Below are positions 416-34,602 of a stretch of 34,602 nucleotides of DNA, piece after piece; position 1 is the first letter of the stretch, and each line of letters begins with the position of its first letter. The stretch lies in NCBI GenBank assembly GCA_903864915.1, contig CAIPHS010000006.1, positions 1-34,602 of the forward strand. The letters are read 5' to 3'. Made by a program: the position numbers and the translations under genes. Below the pieces are notes generated by a model. It searched no databases and had not been told where the DNA came from. It worked only from the letters and a program-made list of their open reading frames with translations. Source of the DNA: an uncultured Candidatus Woesearchaeota archaeon (GTDB lineage: Archaea; Nanobdellota; Nanobdellia; UBA10117).

Positions 416-967
416 ATGGTGAAAAAACAAGAAGAAATCCTGTTTAACAAGAATCTTACCAGACTTTTGATGTTATTTGCGAACCAGCCAGACTACAAAT
501 TTACCCAGGCAGACATAAGAAAAGCCACTGGGCTTTCAAAGCTTACTGTGAGTAAATGGCTGCAGGGGCTCGAAAAGCTGGAATTTGTAAAAACTGAAGC
601 CATAGGCAGAAATATTTTGTATTATGTTACTGGGGATAATCCGGTAATCAAGCAGGAGAAAATCCTGCTGAACGTATCCAATCTTTATGTTGCTGCAAAG
701 CAGCTTGCAAAGATGCTGGAGTGTGAAGTATACCTGTTCGGCTCTGCGGCAAGGGGTGAGGATACTGAAAAAAGTGATATCGACTTACTGATCATAGGCG
801 ATAAGGTTCCTCAGAATGCGGTGATGGCAATAACAGGACCTGTAGAGAAAGACATGGGCAAAAAAATCACATTTCACATATTCACAAGGCTTGAGTGGTC
901 CCAAACCGCTAGAAAAGACAAAGCATTTTATGAAAGGGTGGAAAAAGACAGGATAAGGCTGGCATGA
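416..967 (+). CDS. Winged-helix/MarR-like HTH fused to MNT-type nucleotidyltransferase (antitoxin of HEPN-MNT pair)
   Basis: N-terminal HTH (FTQADIRKATGLSKLTVSKWLQGLEKLEFV) followed by the Pol-beta NTase motif GSAARGEDTEKSDIDLLI; 4-bp overlap with the downstream HEPN gene. Confidence 0.85.
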   Translation: MVKKQEEILFNKNLTRLLMLFANQPDYKFTQADIRKATGLSKLTVSKWLQGLEKLEFVKTEAIGRNILYYVTGDNPVIKQEKILLNVSNLYVAAKQLAKMLECEVYLFGSAARGEDTEKSDIDLLIIGDKVPQNAVMAITGPVEKDMGKKITFHIFTRLEWSQTARKDKAFYERVEKDRIRLA

Positions 968-1434
968 AAACCAACGGCAAACCGGTTGATATGCGGGCGA
1001 AAATAAGCGCCGCCCTGGACAGGGCAATAAAGCTCGGGCACCTGAAGATTGAAGAGCCTGGTGGCGAAGAAGTAGTGAAACATTACGTTGAGCAGGCCCA
1101 GTTGGACCTGGACACAGCTGAACACTCTATGGAAGAGAAAGATTACAAATGGTCCATTGTGCAGAGCTATTATTCCATGTTCAATGCAGCCAGGGCAGTT
1201 TTGTTCAAACTGGGATTCAGGGACCAGAAACATTATGTCATAGCTGACGTCCTTGAAGAAATAAGCAAGGAAGGAAAGCTTGAGCCGAAATATGTTGATG
1301 ATTTCAAGGCTTCGATGAGAAGCAGGGAGGACGCCAATTACAGATCAATATTCTCCCTGGAGACTGCCAATTTCACTCTTGAAATGGCAAAGGAATTCCT
1401 TAACAGGATGAAAGCGCTTGTCAAGGTGCTATGA
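964..1434 (+). CDS. HEPN domain protein (toxin partner of MNT)
   Basis: YVEQAQLDLDTAEHSMEEKDYKWSIVQSYYSMFNAARAVLFKLGFRDQKHYV is HEPN-like; coupled to the MNT gene. Confidence 0.8.
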   Translation: MKTNGKPVDMRAKISAALDRAIKLGHLKIEEPGGEEVVKHYVEQAQLDLDTAEHSMEEKDYKWSIVQSYYSMFNAARAVLFKLGFRDQKHYVIADVLEEISKEGKLEPKYVDDFKASMRSREDANYRSIFSLETANFTLEMAKEFLNRMKALVKVL

Positions 1435-8724: not shown

Positions 8725-8932
8725 AGTCGAAAAAGTCCTGAAAGAGATAAGGCCAATGTTACAAATGGACGGAGGTGATGTAAGATTAGTAAAAATAACG
8801 AAGGATGTAGCTGTGGTGAAGCTTGCGGGTGCATGCGCAGGATGCCCGTTTGCAAATGCAACGCTAAAAGACCTAGTGGAAGCAAGAATAAAGGAAAAAG
8901 TAAAGGGAATTAAGGAAGTCAGATCTGCTTAA
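8705..8932 (+). CDS. NifU C-terminal (Nfu) domain Fe-S protein
   Basis: IRPMLQMDGGDVRLVKI...CAGCPFANATLK. Confidence 0.92.
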   Translation: MKNTRAEVEKVLKEIRPMLQMDGGDVRLVKITKDVAVVKLAGACAGCPFANATLKDLVEARIKEKVKGIKEVRSA

Positions 8933-9845
8933 TCCTAAGCTCCTTCAACTTCTGCCTTGCTATCTTCATAATTAGATTCTCATCCAGAGGCTTTGCACTT
9001 TCCCATAGCCTGTCAAACATGTTCTTGTATGCATCGCATACATCCTTGCTCTCTATCCACACGAAGCCGGCAATCCCATGGGCTGACGAGCGTATGGGTA
9101 GCGCAACAACATCTGAAGTGTCGCTCAAATACAACGTCACAGAGTCTATATTTGCATCAAGATAACGGAATTCAACATTTTGCATTTTTGACAGCTTTGC
9201 CAGGTTGTCATAGCAGGTTTTAACTTCATTATAGGCAAGCTCCTTGTTTTTCAAAGCATCATGCGCCTTAAGGAAAACCCTCCTGGGATTGAGGGATAAA
9301 ATATACTGAACCTTCAGGTTGCCTTTCAAACAATTTTCTTTCATGGCTGCCTTATGTTCTGTAGTACCTAGCAACTTGCCCAAGACTTCAGAGTAGGCCA
9401 ACGACGGGATATTTCCGGGCCTCTTGTAGAACTTCACCTCATTCAGTTTTTCACAAGATAGCTTTTCAGACGCCTCAAAGTCAAAATAGTGTACAACGAT
9501 TTTCGTTTTGTCTGCTTTGAAAATCTGGTCTATGCCCTTGCTTGCGGAATCGCATTCGCCAATGTCTGCTTTCAAGTCCTCCTTCTTTTTCTGAAGGCTT
9601 TGTTTTAGCTTTGCATTATTGACCTGGTAGATGCCATTAGATTTCAAAACAAAGCCCAGTTTCTGCAAATCTTTCAGCTGCGCAAACAAATTTGGCTTCT
9701 GGATGAACTTGTTTGTCAGTTTCCTGTAGGCTATTTCGATACTTTTCGGCTTTGCGCCGCCTTCAGCGGAAGCAGCATCAATAGCCCGCAAGAGTTCGAA
9801 TTGCTGCTCAGTCACGCCCATCAAATCCCCAATATTACTATGCAT
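8919..9845 (-). CDS. wHTH transcriptional regulator, TrmB-like architecture (uncertain)
   Basis: N-terminal helical/wHTH-like ~80 aa, then a PLD-like ligand-binding-type region (IPSLAYSEVLGKLLGTTEH...ALPIRSSAHGIAGFVWIESKDV). Confidence 0.55.
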   Translation of the reverse strand: MHSNIGDLMGVTEQQFELLRAIDAASAEGGAKPKSIEIAYRKLTNKFIQKPNLFAQLKDLQKLGFVLKSNGIYQVNNAKLKQSLQKKKEDLKADIGECDSASKGIDQIFKADKTKIVVHYFDFEASEKLSCEKLNEVKFYKRPGNIPSLAYSEVLGKLLGTTEHKAAMKENCLKGNLKVQYILSLNPRRVFLKAHDALKNKELAYNEVKTCYDNLAKLSKMQNVEFRYLDANIDSVTLYLSDTSDVVALPIRSSAHGIAGFVWIESKDVCDAYKNMFDRLWESAKPLDENLIMKIARQKLKELRIKQI

Positions 9846-9851
9846 GGTAAT

Positions 9852-9863
9852 ATAGTATACTAT
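9852..9863. promoter_or_regulatory. 12-bp palindrome ATAGTATACTAT
   Basis: Perfect palindrome just upstream of the regulator start (9845, minus), between a TATA-like box (AAAGGTATATAAG on minus) and the ATG. Confidence 0.5.
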
Positions 9864-9913
9864 TATCCATACTTATATACCTTTCCATCATTGTAAACAA
9901 TAAGGTGCTCAAA

Positions 9914-10255
9914 ATGCCATACGGACCAAAAGACTGGAAAATGAAATATGATCCTATCGAAGAAAGACACGTATTAGTGCCATCTGACTGGGAGTATCAC
10001 ATTGACTATGACAAATGTTTAGAAATAGAGAAACAAAAAGATGAAGAATTTTGGGAAAGGGTGCATAGAAAAACAAGTGGTGAGATATCGTGCCCGCCAA
10101 ATCTCCAGCGCATACTTAAATCTAACCAAAATAAAATTAATGTTAGTGGACATTGGGTTGATAGAGATGACTATAACAGCCTATCTCCTGACGGTAAACA
10201 AGCAATAATCTTAATTTTGGATGTGCTAGACGAAGTTTTTGATAGGTATGAATAA
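9914..10255 (+). CDS. PKDW-family small protein 1 (novel tandem paralog)
   Basis: N-terminus MPYGPKDWKMKYDPIEERHVLVPSDWEYHIDYDKCLE; shared with the next two ORFs. Confidence 0.7.
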   Translation: MPYGPKDWKMKYDPIEERHVLVPSDWEYHIDYDKCLEIEKQKDEEFWERVHRKTSGEISCPPNLQRILKSNQNKINVSGHWVDRDDYNSLSPDGKQAIILILDVLDEVFDRYE

Positions 10256-10593
10256 TGCCAATAGTGCCAAAAGACTGGAAATGGGTGTATGACCCACAAA
10301 CGGGTGAAGGAGATTGGGCACCGCCAGGCTTCACTTACAAATGCGATTACAATAGATTTTTCAGAGAAGAAAAGCAAAAATTAGCTGACAGAGTCAGACT
10401 CACTCCATTAACAACACCTTATGAAAGTTTTGTGGAGATGACGGAAAGAAACTATAGAACGGAAAGCCACGAAGAACCCAATGAGATATCTAAAGAAATA
10501 GCATGGAGCTTAGCATCTCTTCTATGGCCCATATACCAAAGCTTACCGGAAGCAGAAAAAAGAAAATTCGAATTGGCGCTTGAACGACTATGA
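10255..10593 (+). CDS. PKDW-family small protein 2
   Basis: MPIVPKDWKWVYDPQTGEGDWAPPGFTYKCDYNRFF; start overlaps the stop of paralog 1. Confidence 0.7.
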   Translation: MPIVPKDWKWVYDPQTGEGDWAPPGFTYKCDYNRFFREEKQKLADRVRLTPLTTPYESFVEMTERNYRTESHEEPNEISKEIAWSLASLLWPIYQSLPEAEKRKFELALERL

Positions 10594-10623
10594 TAAAAAA
10601 ATCAGAGGTGGGGAATTTGTGAA

Positions 10624-10920
10624 ATGCCAATCGTACCAAAAGACTGGGAATGGCAGTATGACTGGAGTACAGGTAAAGGCAAATATTGCCCGCCTGACTT
10701 TGAATATAAACCAGATTATAATGAAATCTTTCCACCAATAAGCCAAACTTCTAGCTATTTGGAAACCAAACTTATACCATCAGCGCTCGATAAAGACATA
10801 GCATGCATAGACTTCTGGGAAAGGCTGAGACGAGACGCTCAATTAAAAGAAAGGTATGAAAATAATAAAATATTTAGAGATTTTTGCGATAAATATTACA
10901 AAAAAGAGCTCTGGTATTAA
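10624..10920 (+). CDS. PKDW-family small protein 3
   Basis: MPIVPKDWEWQYDWSTGKGKYCPPDFEYKPDYNEIF. Confidence 0.7.
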   Translation: MPIVPKDWEWQYDWSTGKGKYCPPDFEYKPDYNEIFPPISQTSSYLETKLIPSALDKDIACIDFWERLRRDAQLKERYENNKIFRDFCDKYYKKELWY

Positions 10921-10922
10921 AA

Positions 10923-11945
10923 ATGGAACTAAAAGAAATGGCTAAAAAAATCTTGGATGATGTGAAGGCTAAGGTATGGCCAGTCTACCAGCCGTATTTG
11001 CCTAAAGGCGATGATGAATTTTCTGTAATGGTGCGGGATTATCCTGAAAGGCAGGGGAAATATGGCAGAGCCGCCCTGATTTGCCTGAGCAATGAGCTTT
11101 TCGGCGGCAAGCCTGAACGAGCATACCTGACGGCTGCAGCATACCAGGCTGGCGAGGATTGGATACTAATTCATGATGATTTCCATGACGAATCTGAGGA
11201 AAGAAGACACTTACCTTGCCTGCATCAAATCTATGGCGAAAAGCATGCGGTAAACGCCGGCGATGCCCTGCACATGATTATGTGGAGCATGCTACGAAAT
11301 AATCACCAGCTCTTGGGTGAAACTTTAGCGCGGACGCTTGAAGACAAGATTCACGAAACACTCCTTACAACCACAAAAGGCCAGCACGTTGAATTAAATT
11401 GGATAAAGAATAACTGTATAGGTGTTACGGATGATGATTATTTCTACAAAGTTGACATTATTTCCGGTCTGTACACCATAATTACGCCTTTGCAATTGGG
11501 TGCTATAATCGCAGGAGCAAGCGAAAGCGACCTTCAGAAGATTGTAAAGTTTGCAAAACCGCTTGGAAGAGCTTTCCAAATCAGAGATGACGTTCTCAAC
11601 CTGCTCGAAAAGAAGGAGTACGGAAAGGAAGCTTACGGGGATATTTACGAAGGCAAGAGAACATTGATGCTAACCCACGCGTTCATCAATTGCACACCTT
11701 CCGAACAAGAAAGAGTAGCTGAAATTTATGCAAAGAAACGAAAGGAAAAGACTGCTGGAGAAGTAGCTTATGTTGTTGAATTAATGAAGAAATATGACAG
11801 CATAAAATACGCGCAAAAGTTTGCTGAAGATTATGCAAAAGATGCTTTGAATATTTTTGACAAGGAATTTTCACATCTGCCAGCCACGCAAGCCAAGCAG
11901 GACCTTAGAACCCTGATCGAATATATGGCTATGAGGACTGAATGA
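10923..11945 (+). CDS. Trans-isoprenyl diphosphate synthase (GGPP synthase-like)
   Basis: First Asp-rich motif ILIHDDFHDESEERR, NAGDALH, QIRDDVLNLLEKKEYGKEAYGDIYEGKRTLMLTHA. Confidence 0.9.
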   Translation: MELKEMAKKILDDVKAKVWPVYQPYLPKGDDEFSVMVRDYPERQGKYGRAALICLSNELFGGKPERAYLTAAAYQAGEDWILIHDDFHDESEERRHLPCLHQIYGEKHAVNAGDALHMIMWSMLRNNHQLLGETLARTLEDKIHETLLTTTKGQHVELNWIKNNCIGVTDDDYFYKVDIISGLYTIITPLQLGAIIAGASESDLQKIVKFAKPLGRAFQIRDDVLNLLEKKEYGKEAYGDIYEGKRTLMLTHAFINCTPSEQERVAEIYAKKRKEKTAGEVAYVVELMKKYDSIKYAQKFAEDYAKDALNIFDKEFSHLPATQAKQDLRTLIEYMAMRTE

Positions 11946-12262
11946 TGGAAAAGAAAGCAACGCCCGCATGGCACAAAGATCCAAAGTATGTAAAATATTC
12001 CTACTTAGCAGTATTAGCTACAATAGGAATATTTTTACTATCACTTTTCATTGGCTTTGCAACAAACATAATTGATTTCATATGGTTAGCTATGGCTGCA
12101 CGCTTTGCACTTACCGGAGTATATTTTGCAAGTATTTATTGCACTTACCAATTTGCAAGAGTGCATGGCAAGCCAAGATGGTGGTTAGTACCTGTCTTCT
12201 TATTTCCGCTAATAACCATACCAGTCGTTTATTTCAGTGTAAAAAAACAGATTGCTGCTTGA
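11942..12262 (+). CDS. Small membrane protein
   Basis: ATG overlaps the previous stop; three hydrophobic segments. Confidence 0.6.
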   Translation: MMEKKATPAWHKDPKYVKYSYLAVLATIGIFLLSLFIGFATNIIDFIWLAMAARFALTGVYFASIYCTYQFARVHGKPRWWLVPVFLFPLITIPVVYFSVKKQIAA

Positions 12263-16561: not shown

Positions 16562-16578
16562 CAATGCCTTTCTATTGC

Positions 16579-17085
16579 ATGGGTGCTACTGCATCCTTGC
16601 AGAAGATTTGCCTGCTAGGACTTCCAGAAGTTGGGAAAACCCAAATTGCCAAGCGTTATACTAGTGACGAATTTGAACGTGGTTATTTCAGCAGCCTTGC
16701 TGTAAAAATCTACAAGCGCGGCACAAACGTAGAATACGAAGGCAAGACTTACACAATTGTCAACTTTATCTGGGACGTGCCTGGGAGCTATTTGCATGGA
16801 GGCGCGAAGCAGCACGTGTTAAGTTACCTAGACAAGGCATCAGGCATCATAGCGGTTTACGACTGCACTAAACCAAATACTGTTGGCGAACTTGAACAGA
16901 TCCTTAAGGAATCCAAAATCATCGGCAAGAAACCGATTATTTTTGCGGCGAACAAGGCAGACCTGCTCCCTGCAGACAAAAGACATACACTTGCGCCGAA
17001 CCGCATATACACAAGTGCCAAGACTGGCGAGAACATACAGGAATTATTCATCATGCTGAACAGGCTGCTGCTTGACAAAATCTGA
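16579..17085 (+). CDS. Ras/Rab-like small GTPase 1
   Basis: G1 GLPEVGKTQ, G3 WDVPGSY, VYDCTKPNT, G4 NKAD, G5 TSAKTGENI; start 16579 (MGATASLQKICLLG) aligns with paralog start MNATKSAQKICVLG. Confidence 0.85.
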   Translation: MGATASLQKICLLGLPEVGKTQIAKRYTSDEFERGYFSSLAVKIYKRGTNVEYEGKTYTIVNFIWDVPGSYLHGGAKQHVLSYLDKASGIIAVYDCTKPNTVGELEQILKESKIIGKKPIIFAANKADLLPADKRHTLAPNRIYTSAKTGENIQELFIMLNRLLLDKI

Positions 17086-17129: not shown

Positions 17130-17645
17130 ATGATGAATGCTACGAAAAGCGCGCAGAAAATCTGCGTTTTGGGGTTTTCGGAAAGCGGTAAGACCCAGAT
17201 TATTAGAAAGCATGTTCTTAACGAGTTTAAGGAAAAGTATGATGAAACTCTTGGCGCGCATGTTTACAAGCACACAAAAAACATCAACTACGAAGGCACA
17301 ATTTATACCATTGCAAATTTCCTTTGGGACGTACCTGGGAGGTATCAGCATAAACCATCAAAAGTGCCATTAACGTATATCTACAAGGCAGATGGTGTGA
17401 TAGGCGTTTATGACTGCACTAATCCATCCACCCTCAATGAACTTGAGCGGATTCTACAGGAAAATTCCGATTCAATCGGCAAATCCGCTGTTGTTTTTGC
17501 AGCAAACAAGGCGGATTTGATAGCAAAATCCAAGCGGCCACGGCTGCCTGAAAATCACATGTATGTCAGCGCAAAGACTGGCGAGAACATTGAGAGGCTT
17601 TTGAAGCTGCTTGACAAGAAAATACTTGCAAATGGCAAATTGTAG
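17130..17645 (+). CDS. Ras/Rab-like small GTPase 2
   Basis: G1 GFSESGKTQ, G3 WDVPGRY, VYDCTNPST, G4 NKAD, G5 VSAKTGENI. Confidence 0.85.
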   Translation: MMNATKSAQKICVLGFSESGKTQIIRKHVLNEFKEKYDETLGAHVYKHTKNINYEGTIYTIANFLWDVPGRYQHKPSKVPLTYIYKADGVIGVYDCTNPSTLNELERILQENSDSIGKSAVVFAANKADLIAKSKRPRLPENHMYVSAKTGENIERLLKLLDKKILANGKL

Positions 17646-24955: not shown

Positions 24956-25651
24956 ATGCAACGTCTCTGGCAAGTTGATGCTAGCCGCGGCCTGGCCCTA
25001 ACTTTCATGCTAGTGTCAAACTTTGTCACAGACCTGCAATACTTCAAGGGCTATTCCAGTTTTGGAAATCTTTGGTTCGCCTTTGCCCAGCTTACGGCAT
25101 TTATGTTCATCTTCATTGTTGGTTTCTCTTTGGTTTTAAGCTATAACTGGGCTGTAAAGGAAAACAAGGCCACACTTGGCAAATACCTGAAGCGGGGCCT
25201 TTGGATATTTGGCCTTGGCCTACTCATAACCTTCATCTCGTATTGGTTCATCGGCGCGGATTACATTAGGTGGGGTGTGCTAAGTCTGATAGGCAGTTCG
25301 ATAATCCTTGCTTATCCTTTCCTTAAAGCGAAGCCTGTCTGGTCTGCGGTCATGGGGTTGCTGTTCGTTATTGCTGGCTGGATAGCCTGGCATGTAACAT
25401 TGACAACCAATTTACTTTTGCCAGTTGGTTTTACGACAGCAAGCTTTTCCTCTGTTGATTATTTCCCGCTTCTGCCCTGGTTTGGTGTTGCCCTGCTGGG
25501 AATATTTTTCGCCAAGACATATTATTCCAAAATCAGCAATCTCCAAAGCTCAAAACCGAAATTCAAGCCGCTTTGCTGGCTAGGCAGGCATTCCCTAGTC
25601 ATTTACCTGATCCACCAGCCCATTTTCCTGGCGCTTTTGCTGTTTTTTTGA
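24956..25651 (+). CDS. DUF1624/HGSNAT-like membrane protein
   Basis: VDASRGLALTFMLVSNFVTDL, polytopic, LGRHSLVIYLIHQPIFLALLL. Confidence 0.8.
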   Translation: MQRLWQVDASRGLALTFMLVSNFVTDLQYFKGYSSFGNLWFAFAQLTAFMFIFIVGFSLVLSYNWAVKENKATLGKYLKRGLWIFGLGLLITFISYWFIGADYIRWGVLSLIGSSIILAYPFLKAKPVWSAVMGLLFVIAGWIAWHVTLTTNLLLPVGFTTASFSSVDYFPLLPWFGVALLGIFFAKTYYSKISNLQSSKPKFKPLCWLGRHSLVIYLIHQPIFLALLLFF

Positions 25652-25921: not shown

Positions 25922-25968
25922 TAGTATTTTAGCGAAGTTTTATATTGCAAATTTGCATTACTACAAAA

Positions 25969-26535
25969 ATGACTAAGTTTGTAGTGGAGCATCTTGAGCC
26001 CTCGATGTACAAGTGGTGTATCATCGAGTATACGCACATGTCCAAAAGGGTTGGCAAGGCAAACCTGATGTTCACTAACGTAACCGCTGGCGCGGCTAAG
26101 TTAAAGTCCTTGGGCGATGTAAGGAAGGACAGCATCAAGGATATTCCCCTGAAGAAGGCTTGTGTGCTGGATCCTTCTGCAAAGAAGCTTCTGACGCCAA
26201 AAGAGGCAAAGAAGTTTGATTATTTCATCTTTGGCGGGATACTTGGAGACAACCCGCAGAGATTCAGAACAAAGAAACTTATCACGTCAAAGCTAAAACT
26301 GCCTGCTTACAACCTAGGCGACAAGCAGATGTCAACTGACACTGCAGTGATTGTCTGCAAGAAAATCGTTGACGGCACGCCGTTGGGCAAGTTAAAGTTT
26401 GCCGAGGAATACGAAATTGAAGAAGAGCCTGGCTTCTACAGAATTCTGCCTTACAGGTACCTTGTTGAGAAAGGAAAGATTGTGTTCGCACCCAACCTGA
26501 AGGACTTTCTAAGTAAATTAAAACCGTCAGTTTAA
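25969..26535 (+). CDS. SFM1-like SPOUT methyltransferase (DUF431-like)
   Basis: KFVVEHLEPSMYKWCIIEYTHMSKRVGKANLMFTNV; FGGILGDNPQRFRTKKLIT; LGDKQMSTDTAVIVCKKIVDG. Confidence 0.75.
   Translation: MTKFVVEHLEPSMYKWCIIEYTHMSKRVGKANLMFTNVTAGAAKLKSLGDVRKDSIKDIPLKKACVLDPSAKKLLTPKEAKKFDYFIFGGILGDNPQRFRTKKLITSKLKLPAYNLGDKQMSTDTAVIVCKKIVDGTPLGKLKFAEEYEIEEEPGFYRILPYRYLVEKGKIVFAPNLKDFLSKLKPSV

Positions 26536-31108: not shown

Positions 31109-31109
<1 letters not shown>
30840..31109 (-). CDS. rpl30e: Ribosomal protein eL30
   Basis: L7Ae/L30e fold sequence KLIVGFNETLKAVKLGNTKEVFMTKSC; located after rpoA2 as in archaeal operons. Confidence 0.88.

Positions 31110-34602
<3,493 letters not shown>

Follow-up and report, generated by a model that had tools for sequence, protein, structure and literature searches.

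Polymorphic toxin arrays combine a constant N-terminal part, which serves trafficking, with a variable C-terminal part. For some of the enzymes that make GGPP, dimerisation is a process in which the N-terminal helices are important. The constant head and variable tail of the toxin arrays are also seen in a trio of small ORFs that lies beside a GGPP-type synthase gene in an uncultured Candidatus Woesearchaeota archaeon. Our window, that is, the whole stretch of DNA analysed (34,602 nucleotides), is one complete contig of a genome of 650,790 bases in 13 contigs, judged 82.65% complete, and its gene content (S8e, TFIIB, a split RNA polymerase A) is that of a small-genome archaeon. The largest RNA polymerase subunit is encoded by two genes (31109-34581, minus strand), as is usual in archaea.

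We put at about one in three the probability that the three proteins are small adaptor or accessory subunits of a prenyl-synthase operon, with a constant head and variable partner-binding helices. The trio is a real, undescribed but narrow cluster of ORFan paralogues, and such clusters are common.

A constant module and three unlike tails

Three consecutive ORFs with a common N-terminus had been predicted here from the sequence, and ORF calls, alignment and shuffling all bear this out, on the plus strand (Table 1). The array had been placed from position 9905, where a GTG is found; the ATG at 9914 is the likelier start of ORF1, because the protein then begins with MP like ORF2 and ORF3 and a Shine-Dalgarno-like stretch, AAGGTG, lies ahead of it. 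GC content over the array is 0.37-0.40, against mostly 0.41-0.47 around it.

The common module is 38-43 residues long, and the first 43 residues of the three ORFs align without gaps. Pairwise scores over this length (87, 74 and 139) were each reached by 0 of 5,000 shuffles, with identities of 56% between ORF2 and ORF3 and 42% between ORF2 and ORF1. Thirteen residues are invariant in all three modules: M1, P2, P5, K6, D7, W8, Y12, D13, P23, Y28, D31, Y32 and Q41. The W/Y-rich consensus given in the original prediction fits ORF2 and ORF3; ORF1 departs from it at much beyond the invariant positions, with M for W10, PS for PP, W for F and YH for YK, and with neither the TG.G motif nor the terminal F. 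By the NG86 method, dN is 0.34 and dS 1.86 between the modules of ORF2 and ORF3 (ratio about 0.18) and 0.55 and 1.26 between those of ORF1 and ORF3, dS being saturated for ORF1 and ORF2. From this excess of silent change, the module of copies 2 and 3 looks to be under purifying selection. It had been described as an unrecognised domain, and we likewise found no match for it in Pfam, NCBIfam, PHROGs, PADLOC or, by sequence, the PDB; a literature search returned nothing on it. The sequence family of the trio appears to be undescribed. The role first suggested for the module, that of a tag for targeting, loading or recognition, is conjectural.

From about residue 38 onwards the proteins diverge, as had been predicted: the tails are not significantly alike by shuffling, the observed scores of pairs 1/2, 1/3 and 2/3 being reached by 3,207, 121 and 1,786 of 5,000 shuffles, and the nominal 0.024 of pair 1/3 is owed to one common FWER motif. 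Comparison in other frames and as DNA revealed no clear homology among them, and a search of the other proteins of the genome found no relatives at E 10. Pfam matches of ORF1 to DUF382, a nodavirus methyltransferase and Rap1_C fell below the cut-offs and were taken as chance. Each tail is open over 55-70 codons, for which a first-order model of the region gives a chance of 0.4-1.4% per tail; the coding signal from codon usage is about zero in the tails of ORF1 and ORF2 and better in that of ORF3. We reject simple decay because the frames are intact and the tails are open against that chance; the idea of decaying or frameshifted duplicates also met with no convincing similarity across shifted frames or at the DNA level. 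With three copies from one genome, the pattern is accounted for equally well by tails that diverged fast and by a swapping of payloads.

The synthase gene and its surroundings

The gene after the array is, as predicted, that of a GGPP synthase by family (Pfam polyprenyl_synt; 159 bits against a cut-off of 27), and its C20 product is putative. The nearest solved relative is PDB entry 1wmw (8.2e-51), which we take to be the GGPP synthase of Thermus, and both aspartate-rich metal-binding motifs are present in the translation: HDDFHDESEERR (DDFHD) and RDDVLN (DDVLN). All NCBIfam equivalog cut-offs are missed, the best model being archaeal IdsA with 152 of 468 bits. The synthase family occurs in 62 of 285 genomes of the class, this one included, and is absent from all six other genomes of the same family and all 11 of the same order that were searched; since these 17 genomes have no synthase, both it and the trio are unusual around their own genome. 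The 15 best other members of the class have synthases that are about 27-32% identical to the adjacent one. With the trio next to a gene so rare around it, acquisition seems plausible.

The tail of ORF2 was compared with 20 proteins of the window, and its closest match was the N-terminus of the adjacent synthase, over the first 30 or so residues (EPNEISKEIAWSLASLLWPIYQS-LPEAE in the tail, ELKEMAKKILDDVKAKVWPVYQPYLPKGD in the synthase). The score of 49 was reached by 27 of 20,000 shuffles (p 0.0014), and the next best window protein scored 38; corrected for about 60 tail-protein comparisons, p becomes about 0.08, which is borderline. The likeness to the 5' part of the synthase gene is marginal at the DNA level (47 of 2,000 shuffles). 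WPVYQPYLP, the stretch that matched, is a peculiarity of the adjacent synthase and not typical of the family, other synthases of the class being without it.

The trio, the synthase and a small hydrophobic protein probably form a five-gene operon, as judged by spacing alone: the junctions are TAATG (the ORF1 stop and ORF2 start codons having one A in common), a 30-nucleotide gap containing GAGGTGGGG, 2 nucleotides, and an ATGA overlap. The hydrophobic protein matched no family above the cut-offs, and its membrane character was judged by eye.

A divergent regulator had been predicted to adjoin the array. A divergent gene is present; its identity as a regulator is a guess, the protein having no match in Pfam, NCBIfam, PADLOC or the PDB. 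Its one clear relative (39% identical) lies in another gene context in a 68% complete genome, G006, in which our search finds neither trio nor synthase. Between the divergent genes, the palindrome ATAGTATACTAT is a possible operator, the evidence for which is weak because 162 of 5,000 shuffles of the 68-nucleotide gap also hold a 12-bp palindrome. The putative ACTTATATA element is positioned for ORF1 on the plus strand and, read backwards, for the divergent gene on the minus strand.

Table 1. Features of the trio, the adjoining genes and the intervals between them.
Feature	Position	Strand	Remarks
Divergent putative regulator	8919..9845	-	308 aa
Perfect 12-bp palindrome ATAGTATACTAT	9852..9863		Between divergent genes; possible operator
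TATA-box-like ACTTATATA	9871..9879		Putative; read from the sequence
ORF1	9914..10255	+	113 aa; module aa 1-38; acidic, pI 5.0; Shine-Dalgarno-like AAGGTG upstream
24-nt 5' box ATGCCANNNGNNCCAAAAGACTGG, copy 1	9914..9937	+	DNA identity comparison
ORF2	10255..10593	+	112 aa; tail aa 74-101 resembles GGPP synthase N-terminus
24-nt 5' box, copy 2	10255..10278	+	DNA identity comparison
ORF3	10624..10920	+	98 aa; strong Shine-Dalgarno-like GAGGTGGGG upstream
24-nt 5' box, copy 3	10624..10647	+	DNA identity comparison
Trans-polyprenyl (GGPP-type) synthase	10923..11945	+	340 aa; 2 nt after ORF3 stop; PF00348 1.6e-46
Hydrophobic protein	11942..12262	+	106 aa; overlaps synthase stop (ATGA); probable last operon gene

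Elsewhere in the window, a nucleotidyltransferase with a MarR-like N-terminal part is followed by a HEPN protein (416-1434, plus strand), an arrangement of the MNT-HEPN toxin-antitoxin type. Two tandem small GTPases of the Ras/Roc-like kind (16564-17085 and 17130-17645, plus strand; Pfam Ras, 7.7e-14 and 1.9e-16) are encoded in this reduced archaeal genome, and the plus strand also carries genes for a membrane protein like the HGSNAT-type heparan-alpha-glucosaminide acetyltransferases (24956-25651; 3e-61) and for an SFM1-like protein arginine methyltransferase (25945-26535; 1.7e-48).

Possible roles of the trio

A structure prediction had been proposed as a check, and AlphaFold2 models that took ORF2 or ORF1 as the query gave an aromatic beta-hairpin followed by a mostly helical tail, at low confidence (pLDDT 67 and 65, pTM 0.40 and 0.34). 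Both models, built from the same three sequences, place strands at residues 8-13 and 18-23 and mostly helices thereafter; the best fold-search match of the ORF2 model had an uninformative E-value of 1.7. As adaptors, the proteins would be three small soluble paralogues that arose by tandem duplication and are encoded by the first genes of an operon with the synthase and a small membrane protein. The module would be an aromatic hairpin (W8-x-W10-x-Y12, a turn and a second strand), with W8, W10 and Y12 lining one face, and would preserve a single contact common to the three proteins; the tails, mostly helical and changing fast, would each bind something different. The candidate closest at hand may be the synthase of the operon, since the ORF2 tail is similar to its first 30 or so residues. 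Against this stands the finding of no orthologue outside the genome itself, so that module, tails and operon are without independent conservation. A more specific version is very improbable: the constant aromatic hairpin would bear tails that imitate parts of their clients (for ORF2, the N-terminal helix of the synthase), and client assembly would be tuned in this way. Should the module serve for docking, this reduced-genome archaeon would have a new interaction domain of very small size, linked with an isoprenoid gene that is patchily distributed and often missing in the group. Otherwise the trio cleanly exemplifies a tandem ORFan family of young age, in which the head is conserved and the tails drift.

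That second possibility is about as likely as the adaptor reading. The proteins would be plain ORFan paralogues without a common role as tags: the needs of stability or translation would preserve the N-terminus, the tails would drift under little demand, and the link with the synthase would be positional alone. The distribution of the module argues for it: a genome-wide check for more copies, suggested by the original prediction, returned these three only, all adjacent and in one incomplete genome, and the profile search of relatives found none. The module was not found in 58 relatives, 382 genomes of the class, 380 of the phylum or 176 of the class with a completeness of 93% or more (these sets overlap). 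Back-translated strict patterns found no copy in GTDB contigs, such scans being of a kind that misses divergent relatives. Two matches, in G416 and G331 (E 0.003 and 0.005 per genome), covered 20-22 profile residues within open frames of 451 and 30 amino acids, and were treated as chance because a search of about 380 genomes should yield one or two of this kind.

The unlikeness of the tails, the near-zero coding signal in two of them and the lack of a family match in the searched libraries also favour plain ORFans; the three tails open at low chance each and the purifying selection on the module between copies 2 and 3 speak against them. The original prediction had held two outcomes against itself, a match to a known domain and a family of these copies only, with random-looking tails. 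No known domain matched; these copies are indeed the only ones, but their tails are open frames. The trio is a lineage-restricted ORFan family, not a set of decayed duplicates.

Could the 5' ends be shared mainly as DNA or RNA, residues 1-8 simply following? A 24-nucleotide start box serving translation or regulation, or gene conversion, would then be at work, which we consider rather unlikely as the main explanation. The first 24 nucleotides of the ORFs are 79-92% identical, silent sites included, and identity drops to 0.46-0.58 over the next 24. P2, P5, K6 and D7 each use one codon across the three copies, an agreement with a chance of about 5e-4 (product of window codon frequencies), whereas the codons of D13, P23, Y28, D31 and Y32 differ silently. 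The rest of the window holds no further copy of the box ATGCCANNNGNNCCAAAAGACTGG, even when three mismatches are allowed. For the box itself, both gene conversion of the 5' end and a nucleotide-level signal are possible. However, amino acids are conserved as far as residue 32 despite silent change, which points to constraint on the protein too; we found no conserved RNA fold around the three starts (z 0.61, 0.09 and -1.76), and the 30 nucleotides upstream of them are not alike (8 of 30).

It is unlikely that a mobile element or virus carried the trio in, as accessory proteins of small size with one head in common, and left it beside the synthase. The dip in GC, the ORFan character and the near relatives without the trio would suit such an origin. 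However, none of the window genes scanned with Pfam was recognised as an integrase, phage and plasmid records held no match to the module, nor did PHROGs, and the flanks are housekeeping genes. It is quite improbable that an epibiotic archaeon secretes these small proteins or turns them towards its host, the module being the signal for their export or loading: the idea fits a small-genome archaeon and the tag first suggested for the module, but the latter is acidic and hydrophilic (GRAVY about -1) with no hydrophobic stretch, so it is no standard signal peptide, and no export genes were recognised in the window.

Comparison with known systems

How, then, does the trio, read as adaptors of the synthase operon, compare with described systems? 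It differs from polymorphic toxin and effector arrays in the size of its proteins, which have merely 98-113 residues, and a toxin identity was rejected since neither toxin nor immunity families were found, the tails having no domain in Pfam, NCBIfam or PADLOC. With the WW domain (PF00397) the module has in common that it is short, rich in W, Y and P, and based on a beta-hairpin. However, a second conserved W some 20-23 residues further on is lacking, only W8 being invariant, and two strands are predicted rather than three; the three modules had no Pfam-A match up to E 10, in a search where the HMMER filters drop most weak matches. A further comparison is with the N-terminal helix of trans-polyprenyl synthases: the ORF2 tail bears a borderline resemblance to that part of the very synthase with which it is co-encoded, a likeness that other synthases of the class lack.
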